From positions 1-25,323 of IMG/VR virus record IMGVR_UViG_3300027833_000205: DNA of 25,323 nt. One strand, 5' to 3'. The stretch comes from a virus. This document shows positions 1,949-25,229 of the stretch, in pieces. Position 1 is the first letter of the stretch, and the number at the start of each line of letters is the position of its first letter. The position numbers were made by a program, and so were the translations under genes. The notes under the pieces were generated by a model. That model made no database searches and was not told the DNA's origin. It saw nothing but the letters and a program-made list of their open reading frames with translations.

Positions 1949-4282
1949 ATGGAAAAAATAGAAATATCGGTTTTTAAAAGCCTTTTCAAGCCAAATGAGA
2001 TTCCTTATGTTGTTCCTATCTCCAAAATTGTAAAACGAATTAAGCAAGGAGCATCAGAGGAGTTGGTTTATGAAATAAGAAAAGGAAAAAAAGAACTAAA
2101 GAACCAATTACCAGCAATTGTTTTCTCTGGATTATTTAATAAAAGAAACGGAAACGGTTTAAAACAACATAGTGGTTTAATGTGTTTTGATTTCGATAAA
2201 TACCCAAACAGTCAAGAACTAAATAAACAAAAGGAAATATTAAAGAAGAATAAGCACGTTGTTCTATTGTTTACATCTCCCTCTGGAAATGGTTTAAAGG
2301 CAGTAATAAAGGTATCTAATGAACTAACAAAGGAAACACATCCGCAAGTATTCAAGGCTTTTAATAAGCAGTTTAAATATGAGTATTTTGATATTGCTTG
2401 TTCTAATTTAGATAGGGTATGTTTTGAAAGTTATGATCCAGATATTTACGTTAATTATGAGGCTGAAACATTTGATGCCAAAACATTTGACGAGGGTTAT
2501 ACTTATACAAATAAAGTGCCTTTAATCCCTTTAGACGACGAGAACCAAATCATTGATAAGATAATGGCTTTTGATTGGAAAAAAGATTTTATCGATGGCG
2601 AAAGAAATAATTTTGTTTTTGATTTAGCTGGTGCGTTCTGTGAATACGGAATAAATCAAACGTATGCTTTTGGTTTCATATTTAATAATGTTGTACACGG
2701 TAATTTTACCGAAAAAGAAACACAAACTGCAATTAAGTCAGCTTACAGCTTAAGAGATTTTGGAAGTAAATACTTTGAGAACTACAATAAAATAGAAGCT
2801 GTAAAGCGTGATTTAAAAAACGGTAAAGATTATGTTGTTAAAACGCATAAAGTAACTTTAAAGGTAGCTGATAAGATAGAGGAAGATAGAACGGTTAAAA
2901 TTTTCTGGTTTACTGATAAGAAAGGAGCAATTAAAATAGACCAATATAAATATAAAGCATTTTTAGAGGGCAACGGATTCAATAAGTATTTCCCAACAGG
3001 AACAAATAAACCAACACTTGTTAAAATTACATCTAATGTCGTTGAAGAAACATCAGTCGAAAAAATAAAAGATTATGTTCTAAACTATTTAATTGAAAAG
3101 GCAGAGTTTGATGTTTGGAAACTATGTGTAAACTACTCTACTCTTTTTAGTGAGCAACATCTTTTAATGTTAAAGAGCATTGAACTTAATATGTTAAGAG
3201 ATACAAAAGAGCAATCCTTTATAGCTTATCAAAATGGGATATTAAGAGTAAAAAGAGATAATGTTGTTTTATTGGATTTCTATGATATTGATGGATATAT
3301 CTGGAAAAATCAAATAATAAATAGAGATTTTGTAAGGTCAAGTAATACAGACAACGATTACAAAACATTTATCTCTAATATATCAAACCAAGATCCAACT
3401 GCTTTAGAATGTGTTATTGGCTATCTGCTGAACACTTATAAAAATAAGATGAACAACAAAGCCATCATTCTAAACGATGAAGAAATTTCAGAAAATGCAG
3501 AGGGTGGTACAGGAAAAGGATTAATCGTTCAAGGGTTAAAGAGAATAAGAAGAACATCTATTTTAGACGGTAAAGCCTTTGATGATAAAAAGTCTTTTCC
3601 TTATCAAACAGTTTCTTTAGATAGCCAGATACTTGTATGGGATGATGTAAAAAAGAATTTCAACTTTGAGAGCAAGTTTAGCCTTGTTACAGAGGGGTTA
3701 ACAATAGAGCGTAAAAATAAAGATGCTGTTAATTTAAGCGTTGAAGATTCTCCTAAAATATTAATATCTACAAACTACGTCATTAAAGGAGATGGTAACT
3801 CACACGAACGGAGGAGGCACGAGATTGAGATAGGTCAATACTACGGTAAAAACTTAACTCCGTATGATGAGTTCGGAAAGCAACTTTTTGACGATTGGAG
3901 TGAATTGGAGTTTGTTGCATTTGATAATTACATGGTATCGTGTTTGCAACTTTATTTAAAATTAGGTTTAGTCAAGCAAACAGCCAAGAACCTAAAACTC
4001 CGCAAAGTAATTGCACAAACAGCACAGGACTTTATAGATTGGATAAAAGAGGAAAGGGTTGAGCATTTAGGCAGAATTAATAAATCTGACTTTTTCCAAA
4101 AATTCATTAACGATACTCCAGATTTTGCCAAGATGAAACGAAACACTTTTACACGGTGGGTGCAAAAATACGCAGACTTTAAAGGGTTTGAGTACAGCCA
4201 AGATAGAACGAACGGAGTGAGATGGTTTGAAGTTACAAAAACAAAAGGAATAGTTAAAACATTAGAAAATTTAGAGATATGA
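1949..4282 (+). CDS. Primase-helicase (VirE-N/BT4734 primase, PriCT, SF3 helicase)
   Basis: A 777-residue replication protein that would make RNA/DNA primers and unwind DNA at the phage origin. Residues about 10-170 match the BT4734/VirE N-terminal family of archaeo-eukaryotic-type primases: C-F-D-F-D at 79-83 supplies metal-binding acids, and the T-S-P-S-G-N-G-L-K block is at 109-117. A PriCT-like helical segment follows at about 205-275. The C-terminal part is an SF3/DUF5906-type helicase: Walker A G-G-T-G-K-G at 519-524, Walker B I-L-V-W-D-D at 561-566, motif C I-L-I-S-T-N at 604-609 and an arginine cluster at 621-623. Residues 680-777 probably form winged-helix DNA-binding domains. This architecture is typical of Bacteroidota phages and mobile elements. 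Its stop overlaps the next start as ATGA. Confidence 0.9.
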   Translation: MEKIEISVFKSLFKPNEIPYVVPISKIVKRIKQGASEELVYEIRKGKKELKNQLPAIVFSGLFNKRNGNGLKQHSGLMCFDFDKYPNSQELNKQKEILKKNKHVVLLFTSPSGNGLKAVIKVSNELTKETHPQVFKAFNKQFKYEYFDIACSNLDRVCFESYDPDIYVNYEAETFDAKTFDEGYTYTNKVPLIPLDDENQIIDKIMAFDWKKDFIDGERNNFVFDLAGAFCEYGINQTYAFGFIFNNVVHGNFTEKETQTAIKSAYSLRDFGSKYFENYNKIEAVKRDLKNGKDYVVKTHKVTLKVADKIEEDRTVKIFWFTDKKGAIKIDQYKYKAFLEGNGFNKYFPTGTNKPTLVKITSNVVEETSVEKIKDYVLNYLIEKAEFDVWKLCVNYSTLFSEQHLLMLKSIELNMLRDTKEQSFIAYQNGILRVKRDNVVLLDFYDIDGYIWKNQIINRDFVRSSNTDNDYKTFISNISNQDPTALECVIGYLLNTYKNKMNNKAIILNDEEISENAEGGTGKGLIVQGLKRIRRTSILDGKAFDDKKSFPYQTVSLDSQILVWDDVKKNFNFESKFSLVTEGLTIERKNKDAVNLSVEDSPKILISTNYVIKGDGNSHERRRHEIEIGQYYGKNLTPYDEFGKQLFDDWSELEFVAFDNYMVSCLQLYLKLGLVKQTAKNLKLRKVIAQTAQDFIDWIKEERVEHLGRINKSDFFQKFINDTPDFAKMKRNTFTRWVQKYADFKGFEYSQDRTNGVRWFEVTKTKGIVKTLENLEI

Positions 4283-7770: not shown

Positions 7771-8433
7771 ATGAACTTATTAGAATTATTTGCAGGATCA
7801 AGAAGCGTAGGGAGTGAAGCCGAAAAACAAGGCTTAAATGTTTTTAGTGTTGACTGGACTGCATACGAAAATATAGACTTATCAATTGATATTGGAGAAT
7901 TAAAAAAAGAAGATGTGCCTTTTGTGCCTGATGTAGTTTGGGCTTCTCCTGATTGCACAACTTATAGTATTGCAGCTTGTAGCACCCATAGAACGAATAC
8001 AAAAGAACCTAAAAGCGAATACGCTATAAAATGTGATACAGTAAATCAACACTGGATTGGATTGATAAAAGAGTGGTTATTAGTTAACCCAAACTTAGTT
8101 TTTTTTATTGAGAACCCAAGAGGAATGTTAAGGCATATGGAATGGATGCAAGAATTTAAAAGGCATACAGTATGGTATTGTAAGTATGGAGATGATAGAG
8201 CAAAGCCAACTGATATTTGGACGAACTCTAAAACTTGGGTACCAAGACCAATGTGTAGGAATTTTAAATACAATAAGGAAACTGGCGAAATAATAGACAG
8301 ACATTGCCATCACGAAAGTGCAAGGCGTGGAGCAAGAACAGGAACGCAAGGTAAAAAAGGATCATACAATAGAAGTAAGATACCAAACGAACTATGCAAA
8401 GAGATTATTGAAAGTACTAAAGTAGTATTGTAG
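7771..8433 (+). CDS. DNA (cytosine-5-)methyltransferase, compact phage type
   Basis: A 220-residue enzyme predicted to methylate cytosine C5 in DNA. Motif I L-F-A-G-S-R-S-V-G at 6-14 binds S-adenosylmethionine. Motif IV reads S-P-D-C at 59-62, with the presumed catalytic Cys at 62; Asp replaces the more usual Pro or Phe before Cys. Motif VI is E-N-P-R-G at 114-118. W-Y-C-K-Y-G-D-D-R-A-K-P-T-D-I-W (about 135-150) matches the motif VIII region. The C-terminal part has several Cys and His and many basic residues, perhaps a metal-bound recognition region. It is shorter than bacterial C5 enzymes (usually over 300). No cognate endonuclease is near, suggesting self-protection of phage DNA. Confidence 0.85.
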   Translation: MNLLELFAGSRSVGSEAEKQGLNVFSVDWTAYENIDLSIDIGELKKEDVPFVPDVVWASPDCTTYSIAACSTHRTNTKEPKSEYAIKCDTVNQHWIGLIKEWLLVNPNLVFFIENPRGMLRHMEWMQEFKRHTVWYCKYGDDRAKPTDIWTNSKTWVPRPMCRNFKYNKETGEIIDRHCHHESARRGARTGTQGKKGSYNRSKIPNELCKEIIESTKVVL

Positions 8434-8602: not shown

Positions 8603-8788
8603 TTGTTTAGTTATAGGATTAAAAAGAATGGTATCTATTACGATTATTCATTAAAATATAGTCGTGTTTCTTTGGCTCTTAAATGGTACAATCAAAAAGG
8701 GGTACATTTAGAAAAAGTATCAAATCGTAAATTAGTATTATTTAGAAATTCATTGAGGTATGCAAACGGAGATTCTTCCAATAAGTAA
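8603..8788 (+). CDS. Small hypothetical protein with non-ATG start
   Basis: A 61-codon frame with no internal Met. The TTG at 8603 is the best start; an in-frame ATT at 8597 is an alternative, and the frame is open back to a stop at 8558-8560. The peptide, Y-R-I-K-K-N-G-I-Y-Y-D-Y then L-A-L-K-W-Y and L-E-K-V-S-N-R-K-L-V-L-F, has the alternating pattern of a small basic beta domain, which argues for a real gene. It overlaps the ParB-methyltransferase start by 29 bases. If it is not real, 8434-8759 is a 326-base gap. Confidence 0.45.
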   Translation: MFSYRIKKNGIYYDYSLKYSRVSLALKWYNQKGVHLEKVSNRKLVLFRNSLRYANGDSSNK

Positions 8789-9869
8789 AATCAAAAATAA
8801 TCCTAACAACCCACGTTTAGTAAAAGACGATAAGTTTGAGAAACTTGTAAAGTCAATTAAAACGTTTCCAGAAATGTTAAAAATTCGTCCTATCGTTGTA
8901 AACAAAGATTTTATTGTTTTAGGTGGCAATATGCGTTTAAAAGCGTGTCGTGAAGCTGGACTAAAAGAAATACCTATTATACAAGCATCACAACTTACAG
9001 AGGAGCAGCAACGTGAATTTATTATAAAAGATAACGTAGGCTTTGGCGAGTGGGATTGGCAAATGATATCTGCTGAATGGGATGTTGAGCAAGTAGAAGA
9101 ATGGGGTTTAGATGTTGAAGATTTATTTATTGATGAAGTTTTAGAAGCAGAAGAAGATGATTATACAGAGCCAGACGATTTACAAGTAGATGTTGTTTTA
9201 GGCGATTTAATAGAAATTGGAGAACATAGACTTTTATGTGGAGATAGTACAGATAGCAACCAAGTGGCTAAATTGATGAATGGAGTTCAGCCAGAATGGA
9301 TTCACACAGATCCTCCCTACGGTATGAACGCTGTTAGTAAAAGTGGTGTTTTGTCAAAAAATTATAGTGGAGATATTTTAGGAGATGATAATCCAGATGT
9401 AGCAAAAGATTCTTTTAATTTAATATTTAATCTTTACCCAAATGCAAAGCAAGTTTGGTGGGGTGCTAATTATTATAGCAGTTCTCTGCCAGACAGTGAA
9501 TGTTGGTTAGTTTGGGATAAGAATAACGGAGGAAGCGATCAAACTGATGCAGAGTTAGCTTGGTGTAATTACAGAAGTGTTGTTCGAAAATTTACAAAGG
9601 CTTCTGAAAAAACAAACAGAGTACATCCAACACAAAAACCAGTAGAGTTAGTTCAATGGTGCTATGATTGGAGTAAAGAAAATTATAATAATATAGCTGA
9701 TTTTTTTGGAGGTAGTGGTGTTACTATGGTTTGGTCGCATCAATTGAATAAAAAGTGTTTTATGATGGAGTTTGATCCGAAATACTGCCAAGTTATAATT
9801 GATAGGATGATGAAATTGGATGATACTTTAGAAGTAAAAATAAACGGTAAGAGTTATGGCATACGATAA
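8760..9869 (+). CDS. ParB-like domain fused to DNA adenine methyltransferase
   Basis: A 369-residue fusion. Residues 1-120 are a ParB/sulfiredoxin-type domain: I-L-P-I-S-K-I-K-N-N-P-x-N-P-R at the start and the nucleotide-binding box G-G-N-M-R-L-K-A at 55-62, in place of the usual G-x-x-R. An acidic linker (about 122-140) leads to a beta-class methyltransferase with D-P-P-Y-G at 184-188, H-P-T-Q-K-P at 289-294 and SAM-binding F-G-G-S-G at 316-320. ParB-methyltransferase fusions commonly sit beside terminase genes in phages, as here, and may modify DNA before packaging or recognise packaging sites. The second idea is inference. Its end overlaps the small terminase by 14 bases. Confidence 0.9.
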   Translation: MQTEILPISKIKNNPNNPRLVKDDKFEKLVKSIKTFPEMLKIRPIVVNKDFIVLGGNMRLKACREAGLKEIPIIQASQLTEEQQREFIIKDNVGFGEWDWQMISAEWDVEQVEEWGLDVEDLFIDEVLEAEEDDYTEPDDLQVDVVLGDLIEIGEHRLLCGDSTDSNQVAKLMNGVQPEWIHTDPPYGMNAVSKSGVLSKNYSGDILGDDNPDVAKDSFNLIFNLYPNAKQVWWGANYYSSSLPDSECWLVWDKNNGGSDQTDAELAWCNYRSVVRKFTKASEKTNRVHPTQKPVELVQWCYDWSKENYNNIADFFGGSGVTMVWSHQLNKKCFMMEFDPKYCQVIIDRMMKLDDTLEVKINGKSYGIR

Positions 9870-16520: not shown

Positions 16521-17946
<1,426 letters not shown>

Positions 17947-22327: not shown

Positions 22328-22765
22328 ATGAGTACATTTATAAAAGGGGATGCTATCATCTTGTCAATCTGGAACGGTACAGATGCTTATGAGCCTGTTG
22401 GGTGTTTAACGTCAAACAGTTTGTCAGTATCAAGAACAGTGATTGAAACACAAACTAAATGCGATCCGTCTGTTATGATTAAAGAGGCTGGAACAACTAC
22501 AAGCGAGGTATCGTTTGAGGCTACTTATATTAAGACTGATGCTGGTAAAACAGATTTCGATGCTTGTTTAGGTTTCATCAATTCAATTGGATTAAGTACG
22601 CAAGATTGGAAAATGAACACAGACCAAACATCTCCAGAGGCATACTATGGAACAGGTGTTTTTTCTGATTTAACTTTAGATGCAGCGGCTGGAGATGAGT
22701 TTGCAACTTACAGCGGTACAATACAAAACAGTGGTTTAATTACAACCGTTGATCCAAATGCGTAA
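22328..22765 (+). CDS. Major tail tube protein
   Basis: A 145-residue tail tube subunit. It opens with I-K-G-D-A-I-I-L-S-I-W, then L-T-S-N-S-L-S-V-S-R (about 27-36), T-Q-T-K-C-D-P (about 41-47) and a closing F-A-T-Y-S-G-T-I-Q-N-S-G-L-I-T, the pattern of the TP901-1-type major tail protein family. It is just upstream of the tail chaperone and tape measure, and is the only tube gene seen; no sheath gene is present, which indicates a flexible non-contractile tail. It is preceded by its own promoter candidate, fitting the high copy number of this protein. Confidence 0.85.
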   Translation: MSTFIKGDAIILSIWNGTDAYEPVGCLTSNSLSVSRTVIETQTKCDPSVMIKEAGTTTSEVSFEATYIKTDAGKTDFDACLGFINSIGLSTQDWKMNTDQTSPEAYYGTGVFSDLTLDAAAGDEFATYSGTIQNSGLITTVDPNA

Positions 22766-23114
22766 CAGTGTAAAAATTGATTTTAGCGGTAAAGAGTTAG
22801 AGTTTTTTTTCGGTTTATCATTTCTTGGTTATTTCTATGAGAAATACGATTTAGATGTAGCTGATTTATCAAACAACTTGCAAACGAAACCGTTTAGTTT
22901 TATTCCATTGTTAATGTTGGAAAGCTATTTGCATAACTGCGAGAGGAACGAAAAAAAGCCAGAATACAACAAATTTACATTCGCTGATTTATTGGATGAA
23001 AACGGAGGAGTAACGGATGATAATGGAGCAGCTACTAAATTTATGAAAGCGTTTGGGGATTCAATTATTGCACGTTTACCAAAAGCAGAGGAGGAGGGTT
23101 CAAAAAAAAAATAG
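22758..23114 (+). CDS. Tail assembly chaperone, short (pre-frameshift) product
   Basis: A 118-residue protein equivalent in position to lambda gpG, which binds tape measure and tube protein during tail assembly and is not in the final virion. It has D-F-S-G-K-E-L-E-F-F-F-G-L-S-F-L-G near the start and a helical, acidic second half ending E-E-E-G-S-K-K-K. ATG at 22758 is preferred over the in-frame TTG at 22749; it overlaps the tail-tube stop by 8 bases. The gene ends in ten A residues and TAG, a setting for -1 frameshifting into the next frame. Confidence 0.8.
   Translation: MRNSVKIDFSGKELEFFFGLSFLGYFYEKYDLDVADLSNNLQTKPFSFIPLLMLESYLHNCERNEKKPEYNKFTFADLLDENGGVTDDNGAATKFMKAFGDSIIARLPKAEEEGSKKK
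23102..23111 (+). other. Slippery A10 run, -1 programmed frameshift site
   Basis: Ten consecutive A residues come directly before the TAG stop at 23112-23114 of the short chaperone. In the 0 frame they read as the last base of TCA then three AAA codons. Slipping back one base lets tRNA-Lys re-pair fully on AAA, and the next codon becomes ATA at 23111-23113. Confidence 0.72.
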
Positions 23115-23428
23115 ATTGGCAGACTGATGTAGTAGCGTTTGCGATTGGAGAATTGGGATGTACTTATAAACAATATGAACTAATGACGTGGGCTGAATTT
23201 CAACTACGTCTTTTTTCTTTTAATAGGGTAGAGAAAAATAATTGGTTTAAAATTGGGGAGATAGTTGCAAACGTTGTTCAAGCTGGTTTTATAGATGCCA
23301 AAGATAAAAAGAAGATGTTGCAGAACATACAAAAGGCATATCAAGGCAAAAAACGAAGTACATTGAACGAACATCAAAGACAAGCAATACTAAAAGCACA
23401 AGAGCAATATGGCACAGTTAAGCGTTGA
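23111..23428 (+). CDS. Tail assembly chaperone C-terminal extension (via -1 frameshift)
   Basis: This frame has no usable ATG but is open from the A10 run and codes I-D-W-Q-T-D-V-V-A-F-A-I-G-E-L-G-C, then M-T-W-A-E-F-Q-L-R-L-F-S-F-N-R. Such A-x-x-E-L-G and T-x-x-E-F motifs are typical of phage tail chaperone C-terminal parts. An internal TTG at 23153 would cut off the conserved beginning. It is -1 relative to the gene at 22758, so the fused product would be about 223 residues, equivalent to lambda gpGT. The end overlaps the tape measure start by 20 bases. Length and position fit; the frameshift itself is inferred. Confidence 0.78.
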   Translation: MDWQTDVVAFAIGELGCTYKQYELMTWAEFQLRLFSFNRVEKNNWFKIGEIVANVVQAGFIDAKDKKKMLQNIQKAYQGKKRSTLNEHQRQAILKAQEQYGTVKR

Positions 23429-25229
23429 GATAGTAGGGGAAACAAAAAAACTTGAAAAGGCTTTAAAGGATTCTGAAAGGTCTTTAAAGAATTTTGAGAG
23501 CAAAGCAAAAGCCTTAAATGATAAGATAAATAAATCAACTGTTTTACAGGGTAAACTCGCTATTGCAACAGAAAAGGTTGAGCGAGAGTTTGCGAAGGGA
23601 GTTATTACTCAATCCAAATATGAGAACTCAATAAGAGCGATATCTAAAGCAGACGAAAAACTATCAAACAGTACTAAAAATTTACGTACAAATTTAACCA
23701 AAACAAACAAATCAATTAAGGATTTAGGAGGTACGAAAGGTTTTAAGAAGTTAGAGAAAGGAGCAGTAAGCGGTACATCTGCAATGACAGCTTTTAGTAG
23801 AACGGTACAGGATGCACCGTTTGGAATTATGGGGGTTTCTAACAACATTACCAACTTAACGGAGCAATTTGGATATCTAAAGAACAAAACAGGTTCAGCT
23901 GGTGGGGCATTAAAAGCAATGTTAAGAGATTTAAAAGGTTTTGGCGGTATTTCATTGGCTATTTCGGTTGCAACGTCTTTAATGTTGGTTTTTGGGGATA
24001 GGATTAAAGAGGCTACAAAGTCAAGTAGCAAATTGTCTGATGCAATTGATGAGGCTTCTGAAAGTATGGGGGTTGAGATTAATAAATTAAGTGCCTTAAA
24101 AGATGCTTTAATTGATGAAAATACTGAAAAATCAACCAAGTTAAAAATAATAAACAAACTTAAAAAAGACTATCCAAAGTATTTTGGTTTTTTAGATAGT
24201 GAAAAAGTTAATGTTACAAAAGTAACAAAGGCTTATGAATTGCAAAAAAGATCGATTATAGGTTTAGGTATAACAAAAGCACTTGAATCACAAAAAGCAC
24301 CAGAATACGCAAAACTTGCTGAATTAGAACTAAAAAAAGCGTCTGAATTATTAACTGCTGCTGATAGGATTTTCTTAACAAGTGGAGCATTGACTTTTGA
24401 CCAAATCTCAAAATTTACATCAGATTTAGCAAAGCAAAGCAAAGACAGGCAAATTGCAGAGATTGAAAAAAATATTGCAGAGATTGACAAAGCAGCAGAA
24501 AGAATAAAAACAAAATTTAATATATCTGTTGACGATGTTTTAGGGTTTAAAGATTCAAACAATGATAAATTAAAAGAAAAAGTTACTGCATTATTTAGCG
24601 AATTAAATCCAATTGTTACAAGTGGAATAGAGGGGTTAAAAACAAATATATCTTTTGAGGGTTTAAATTTATTCCCTCTAAAAGAGTTTGACGAACAAGC
24701 ATTGCAATTTGCTGAAAGATTGAAAAATTTAGCTGATAACGCAATCCCTAATGCTATGGCTGGTATAACAGATGGAATTGCAAACGCATTAGCTAATGGA
24801 GGAAATGTTTTAAGCGGTATAGGTGGTGCGTTATTAGGTCAAATGGGGCAGTTTCTATCTAAAATGGGTGGTTTGCTTGTTGAGTACGGAACGTTGGCAA
24901 TATTAAAGGGAAAACTTGATGTTGCAATTGGTGTAGGTGGTCCTGTTTCAATTGCTGCTGGTATTGCTGCGGTTGCAGTTGGTACTTTATTAAAGGCAGC
25001 TGGAGGTGCATTTAGTAACGCTGGGAAATCATTGTCTGGCGGTGGCGGTGGTAATGCTAACGGTGGAGCAGACAGATATTCCCCAAGAAGTAGCAACAGC
25101 AGTTCAGTTAGTTCAAGCGGTGGCGGTTTTCAAAATGTAGTGTTTGAGATACAAGGAACAAAATTAGTTGGTGTTTTATCTAACACGTTAGCAAGAAATA
25201 GAAATTTAGGCGGTACATTAGGAATATGA
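23409..25229 (+). CDS. Tape measure protein
   Basis: A 606-residue protein that sets tail length and is threaded through the tube. Residues about 8-115 are Lys/Glu/Leu/Ser-rich coiled coil. V-Q-D-A-P-F-G-I-M-G-V-S-N-N-I (about 133-147) is familiar from Bacteroidota phage tape measures. A first hydrophobic segment is near 178-196 (I-S-L-A-I-S-V-A-T-S-L-M-L-V-F), more coiled coil follows, and a long Gly/Ala-rich hydrophobic region (about 440-545) ends in a Gly-run linker. Such segments are thought to aid membrane passage of DNA. At about 0.15 nm per residue the tail would be roughly 90 nm, fairly short. The stop overlaps the next start as ATGA. Confidence 0.88.
   Translation: MAQLSVEIVGETKKLEKALKDSERSLKNFESKAKALNDKINKSTVLQGKLAIATEKVEREFAKGVITQSKYENSIRAISKADEKLSNSTKNLRTNLTKTNKSIKDLGGTKGFKKLEKGAVSGTSAMTAFSRTVQDAPFGIMGVSNNITNLTEQFGYLKNKTGSAGGALKAMLRDLKGFGGISLAISVATSLMLVFGDRIKEATKSSSKLSDAIDEASESMGVEINKLSALKDALIDENTEKSTKLKIINKLKKDYPKYFGFLDSEKVNVTKVTKAYELQKRSIIGLGITKALESQKAPEYAKLAELELKKASELLTAADRIFLTSGALTFDQISKFTSDLAKQSKDRQIAEIEKNIAEIDKAAERIKTKFNISVDDVLGFKDSNNDKLKEKVTALFSELNPIVTSGIEGLKTNISFEGLNLFPLKEFDEQALQFAERLKNLADNAIPNAMAGITDGIANALANGGNVLSGIGGALLGQMGQFLSKMGGLLVEYGTLAILKGKLDVAIGVGGPVSIAAGIAAVAVGTLLKAAGGAFSNAGKSLSGGGGGNANGGADRYSPRSSNSSSVSSSGGGFQNVVFEIQGTKLVGVLSNTLARNRNLGGTLGI

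Follow-up and report, generated by a model that had tools for sequence, protein, structure and literature searches.

A long A run conserved at a probable -1 frameshift junction of phage tail-chaperone frames

Frameshifting in G/GT tail-chaperone genes is a textbook case of conserved recoding and is regarded as ribosomal. A virus contig of 25.3 kb (25,323 nucleotides, here called the window) carries two overlapping frames of this general layout, the first of which ends in ten A residues that run directly into its stop codon. We asked whether the two frames are joined by a -1 shift at this run, and whether the ribosome or RNA polymerase would slip there.

Two overlapping frames between tail tube and tape measure

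The initial annotation had placed a short chaperone ending in ten As and TAG, continued in the -1 frame, between tail tube and tape measure genes, and each of these points holds (Table 1). The 0 frame has 118 codons, with its ATG (22758-22760) inside the end of the tail-tube frame (stop at 22763-22765) and its terminus reading TCA AAA AAA AAA TAG. The -1 frame is open across the junction, as had been noted, from 23039 to 23428. Read from 23111-23113 (ATA GAT TGG...) to its last codon at 23426-23428, it spells IDWQTDVVAFAIGELG..., and it shares 20 nt with the tape measure frame. Its earliest ATG, GTG or TTG is the TTG at 23153, 14 codons into the conserved part; the conserved part thus begins without a start of its own, and a gene called from 23153 would lose about 14 residues, both as first proposed. 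The joined product would have the predicted length of 223 residues (118 + 105).

Table 1. Features of the chaperone locus in the window
Feature	Position	Strand	Basis or remark
Major tail (tube) protein	22328..22765	+	PF06199 E 1.8e-6; phrog_1407 (major tail protein) E 3.9e-20; adjoins the chaperone pair upstream
Short product, putative gpG-like tail assembly chaperone, 118 aa, 0 frame	22758..23114	+	Sequence; conserved family (79-row alignment); AlphaFold2 pLDDT 87.7; Foldseek
Last -1-frame stop before the junction	23036..23038	+	5' bound of the region where a shift can happen
Candidate slippery site, A10, 0-frame TCA AAA AAA AAA	23102..23111	+	Two in-phase A AAA AAA heptamers
0-frame stop TAG, directly 3' of A10	23112..23114	+	Sequence
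-1-frame extension, putative T-like domain, 105 aa	23111..23428	+	Would complete the 223-aa long product; conserved from its first residues (IDW) in relatives
Tape measure protein	23409..25229	+	phrog_1272 (tail length tape measure) E 2.9e-4; phrog_30292 (unknown function) E 1.2e-89

Elsewhere in the window, an ORF with collagen-like GEQGEQG repeats (16852-17946) lies between the head-tail and tail genes, and a tail fibre gene with collagen repeats is found at a comparable position in the genus Helsingorvirus. Three frames (718-1347, 7771-8433 and 8760-9869) resemble DNA methyltransferases by eye, one of them with a ParB-like start.

We then considered the identity of the two proteins, called here part 1 (0 frame) and part 2 (-1 frame). 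Within the part 2 family, 37 of 79 members matched PHROG 441, annotated as tail assembly chaperone (best E 1.5e-7), and 71 of 79 matched phrog_16333; the window's own part 2 reached only the latter (E 0.005). Part 1 of the window gave no useful match in Pfam or PHROG and no meaningful match in the PDB, whether by sequence or by fold, which counts against the proposed fusion. Its AlphaFold2 model (confidence in Table 1) had as top Foldseek matches in BFVD predicted viral proteins without a functional name, with annotated tail assembly chaperones following at E 5e-3 and weaker. A viral protein of 247 residues, A0A0K1LMC7, matched part 1 and part 2 separately with weak E-values, as would be the case for a natural fusion. 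These searches gave no direct sequence match to lambda G or T. Position, architecture and homology identify the pair as a tail assembly chaperone of the lambda G/GT type, with its function assigned by analogy with lambda (PMC5009743).

Conservation of the junction across the family

Homologues were gathered from public collections of viral contigs, genome contigs and cultured phages, giving 317 loci with both parts; these represent 175 distinct junctions and, at 80% identity, 78 clusters. Part 2 stood in the -1 relation to part 1 in 174 of the 175. The site within the overlap was an A9 run in 96 junctions, A10 in 51 and A11 in one, so that a run of A9-A11 occupied the homologous place in 148. 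Six further overlaps held A AAA AAG, and 19 held G GGA AAG in phase, which we take to be phage lambda's own slippery site; one of these 19 (L192) also has an A8 run. Nearly all 175 overlaps, the window's included, contained a slippery heptamer of the form X XXY YYZ in phase, and L109 was the sole -1 junction with no clear slippery site in its overlap. Two overlaps (L244 and L245) carry two in-phase GGGAAAG heptamers 18 nt apart, and another (L018) carries A8 plus A10, each with an in-phase heptamer. The last -1 stop sits just 5' of the run in most relatives, and often no more than 10-30 nt separate it from the 0-frame stop, with little besides the run in between.

Named relatives infect Flavobacterium, Cellulophaga and Allomuricauda, and from these hosts the window phage appears to infect flavobacteria-like bacteria. 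The gene order around the pair is the same in Flavobacterium phage 11b, whose A9 run lies near 18.2 kb of AJ842011, and in Cellulophaga phage phi10:1. When 397 genomes belonging to the family around the Allomuricauda contig were searched for prophage copies, one gave a match, indicating that this is mainly a family of phage contigs.

The run in the window is not evidence in itself, since dinucleotide shuffles of this AT-rich DNA yielded 4.3 A10 runs by chance. No other run of nine or more As or Ts occurs anywhere in the window. What goes beyond chance, as read from the family's sequences, is the conservation described above, of the -1 relation in 174 of 175 junctions and of A9-A11 in 148.

The exceptions all come from phages of Cellulophaga baltica, from the same region and record series. 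The one anomaly among the 175 is phi10:1, in which an A8 run goes with the +1 relation and an ATG-ATG precedes part 2. Its record (KC821618) omits the short chaperone ORF (L008 3631-4005) from the annotation, skips gp085 in the numbering, and annotates part 2 from the ATG at 3983. Within Helsingorvirus, phi17:1 (L172) has A10 and the -1 relation, while phi18:1 (L173), phi12:3 (L179), phi18:2 (L180) and phi12:1 (L181) have A9 and the +1 relation; all share the junction motif GAGTC-A(n)-GATTAA, so that a difference of one A flips -1 to +1. The phi10:1 junction and these four genomes count against the fusion. The exceptions represent either miscounts of the run or a real tolerance of both relations. 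If +1 and -1 were both truly tolerated, this would point to polymerase slippage.

Taken together, the frames, the conserved slippery site, the absent start and the gene context make it very probable that slippage at the run produces a fusion of the G/GT type. The fusion is supported by the near-universal -1 relation with an in-phase site in the overlap (L109 excepted), as well as by the presence of lambda's exact GGGAAAG, in phase, in members of the family. The central claim of the initial annotation, that a -1 frameshift at the A run joins two tail-chaperone frames, is thus strongly supported by comparative sequence evidence: frame relation, slippery site and missing start are conserved family-wide, and the PHROG 441 matches give part 2 its chaperone name. 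We further infer that both proteins are made, along with their ratio and their roles. Most translation of 22758-23114 would stop at the TAG at 23112 to give the short chaperone, and a minority of decoding would slip in the A10 run by a net -1 and proceed to 23428, giving the short protein plus its extension. Such a slip would require nine or more As. By analogy with lambda, whose G/GT tail chaperones have been reviewed (PMC5009743), the short form would bind the tape measure protein and the long form, which is rare, would additionally recruit tail tube subunits, so that the ratio of the two would matter.

Run length, exchange of sites and the slipping machine

We examined the junction runs by codon phase. 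Among 63 representatives with A9 or longer (A9+), the run is in phase 0 in 43 (lengths 9-10), in phase 2 in 19 (9-11) and in phase 1 in one (10), and no -1 junction has a run of seven or eight As as its only site. Phase-2 runs are the most informative, as they contain A AAA AAA already at seven As; no junction has a phase-2 run of seven or eight. Other genes of the same genomes have 47 phase-2 runs of seven, nine of eight and none of at least nine, a contrast of 0/56 against 19/19 at the junction (Fisher p ~3e-18, relatedness not corrected). Across all phases, runs of at least nine are depleted in other coding sequence, with two seen against 14.5 expected from synonymous codon shuffles (Poisson p 6e-5). 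These two (L232 2355 and L302 312) are the sole A9 runs in other coding sequences of 64 A9+ genomes, and one of them falls early in what is probably a tape measure gene.

Ordinary genes of these phages often carry the A AAA AAA heptamer in A7 and A8 runs and junction runs are always at least nine, which argues that the heptamer is tolerated and that the special feature of the junction is a run length of nine or more. The initial annotation had added that RNA polymerase might slip here, and this caveat proved important, as a run length of at least nine, rather than the in-phase heptamer, is the conserved feature. A homopolymer of at least nine As that is conserved at the frame junction and avoided elsewhere is the pattern of a slippage cassette. 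It points to length-dependent slippage, by RNA polymerase, the ribosome or both.

No conserved stimulator was found in either the A9+ class or the short-heptamer class. Folding energies over 50-80 nt downstream were hardly below those of shuffles (mean z -0.62 and -0.18 for A9+), and downstream RNA structure was rejected as a general stimulator. The window has a Shine-Dalgarno-like sequence, GGAGGAGGG, at 23090-23098, just upstream of A10; such sequences occurred in seven of 63 A9+ representatives, which equals background (12%), and they were likewise rejected as a conserved feature.

A tree of the 78 representatives required eight changes between A9+ and other sites by parsimony, at least four of them forced by well-supported branches. 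A single clade of all non-A9+ members was rejected (p-AU 0.0025, with phi10:1 excluded and the group picked after the tree was seen), and L199, with A9, is nested in the GGGAAAG group. The direction of the shift hardly ever changes across these switches. A9+ runs and short ribosomal heptamers thus seem to have replaced each other about eight times on the tree. Because GGGAAAG is not expected to work by polymerase slippage, the family can, on this reading of its sites, use ribosomal frameshifting.

Two explanations of the slip survive about equally, as the evidence from run length and the evidence from site exchange pull in opposite directions. In the first, to which we give a little less than an even chance, the host RNA polymerase inserts one A at A9 or A10 in some transcripts, and normal translation of these yields the fusion. 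The length evidence favors it: runs of at least nine occur at junctions in each codon phase, the phase-2 contrast and the depletion elsewhere both set in at nine, and in many bacterial genomes selection against slippage becomes visible at runs of nine (PMC1088944). The lack of Shine-Dalgarno-like enrichment and of clear downstream structure also speaks for it. Polymerase slippage deletes as well as inserts, which sits uneasily with a relation that is -1 almost without exception; we rejected the argument that this constancy rules out polymerase, since insertion is reported to be at least twice as efficient as deletion on runs of 7-11 As (PMC6260861), a bias that fits the -1 relation. The E. coli polymerase, however, is less prone to slip on runs of A than on runs of T (PMC6260861), no such slippage is expected in relatives with GGGAAAG or with A6-A7 plus G, and the depletion of long runs fits replication slippage or ribosome sliding too.

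The second explanation is a purely ribosomal -1 shift on AAA codons in tandem (A AAA AAA), where the ribosome would pause at the three AAA codons and at the stop that follows, polymerase being uninvolved; we regard it, too, as falling just short of an even bet. It draws on the tree, where A9+ runs exchange with canonical heptamers, GGGAAAG included, and always in the -1 direction. It also draws on the overlap of L241, which consists only of TGA-AAA-AAA-G-TAG, that is, A AAA AAG abutting the stop. Lambda-type tail frameshifts reviewed to date are ribosomal (PMC5009743), and sliding of ribosomes on three AAA codons (PMC4363877) is the best counter-reading of the length evidence. Against it, the bare A AAA AAA of A7 and A8 runs, frequent in ordinary genes, is never the sole site of a -1 junction, and junctions of the form xxA AAA AAA AAG keep nine As with just two full AAA codons. 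That both machines contribute in comparable shares looks improbable. For the group as a whole, it is possible, though slightly short of an even prospect, that most phages of this large flavobacterial set tune their chaperone ratio by polymerase slippage at A9-A11, with the family switching repeatedly between mechanisms.

Far less probable is that part 2 is an independent gene, translated by coupling from its own start at TTG 23153 or at a non-standard codon near 23111. The ATG-ATG of phi10:1 would suit such a gene, as would the internal start that gene callers placed in 11b. In relatives, however, part 2 is conserved upstream of the position equivalent to 23153. The first 120 junctions were scanned from the last stop of the -1 frame to 45 nt inside part 2: ATG was missing from this stretch in 112, and ATG, GTG and TTG were all missing in 92. 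An independent gene would also leave the conserved slippery site functionless. Least likely of all, to the point of being negligible, is one gene falsely split by a miscounted A run: homopolymers are prone to error and run length varies by one A among five Cellulophaga isolates of a single genus, but run length and frame relation are consistent between separate assemblies, and the -1 relation recurs in 19 relatives at GGGAAAG, a site without a long homopolymer to blame. An error at the window's own run is very unlikely, given the agreement of many metagenome assemblies and a second contig, IMGVR 3300009550_000213, whose chaperone proteins are ~95% identical to the window's and which also has A10 then TAG.

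Comparison with known recoding systems

The fusion by slippage at the run, our preferred reading, belongs to a known kind, the G/GT frameshifts; what is new lies in the site, with its nine or more consecutive As. In the literature, which we covered incompletely, we found neither a site defined by homopolymer length nor transcriptional slippage described for the tail chaperones of phages, and no frameshifting described for flavobacterial ones. The cultured relatives 11b (PHG11b_38/39) and phi10:1 are annotated without the fusion, gene callers remove 14 or more conserved residues, and frameshift finders tuned to heptamers with stimulators may overlook plain A runs. Within one homologous family, nature provides ~150 sites with a long run and ~25 with a short heptamer, and the two types switch repeatedly on the tree. 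The family thereby permits a direct test of how a recoding site changes machine, between polymerase and ribosome, while the needed product stays the same.

Lambda G/GT resembles the window in its gene order of tail tube, chaperone and tape measure, and in having a short product with a -1 extension that lacks its own start. In contrast to lambda, the window and most of its family use an A9-A11 homopolymer with a length threshold, and the window's run touches the 0-frame stop. The annotated tail chaperones of Lactobacillus phage LfeSau and Lactococcus phage ul36 are weakly similar to part 2 of phage 11b (E 5e-3 and 0.9, respectively) and share the gene order, and that of LfeSau is annotated as a joined frameshift product. 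Unlike the window, LfeSau has AAAAAAC in its overlap and ul36 only A7.

Transcriptional slippage offers two further parallels. In dnaX, as may be the case here, the need of one gene family is met either by transcriptional slippage at A9 (Thermus thermophilus) or by a ribosomal -1 shift on a short heptamer (E. coli) (PMC1088944, PMC5009743). Slippage in Thermus dnaX gives a shorter product at about 1:1, whereas here it must extend the product, presumably at low frequency, and the role of polymerase is putative. In Shigella, expression of spa13, spa32 and mxiE likewise depends on slippage, and these genes are linked to controlling the length of a tube-like structure (PMC5009743). Their proteins are unrelated to those of the window, and they belong to a bacterial plasmid system in which slippage was shown by experiment.
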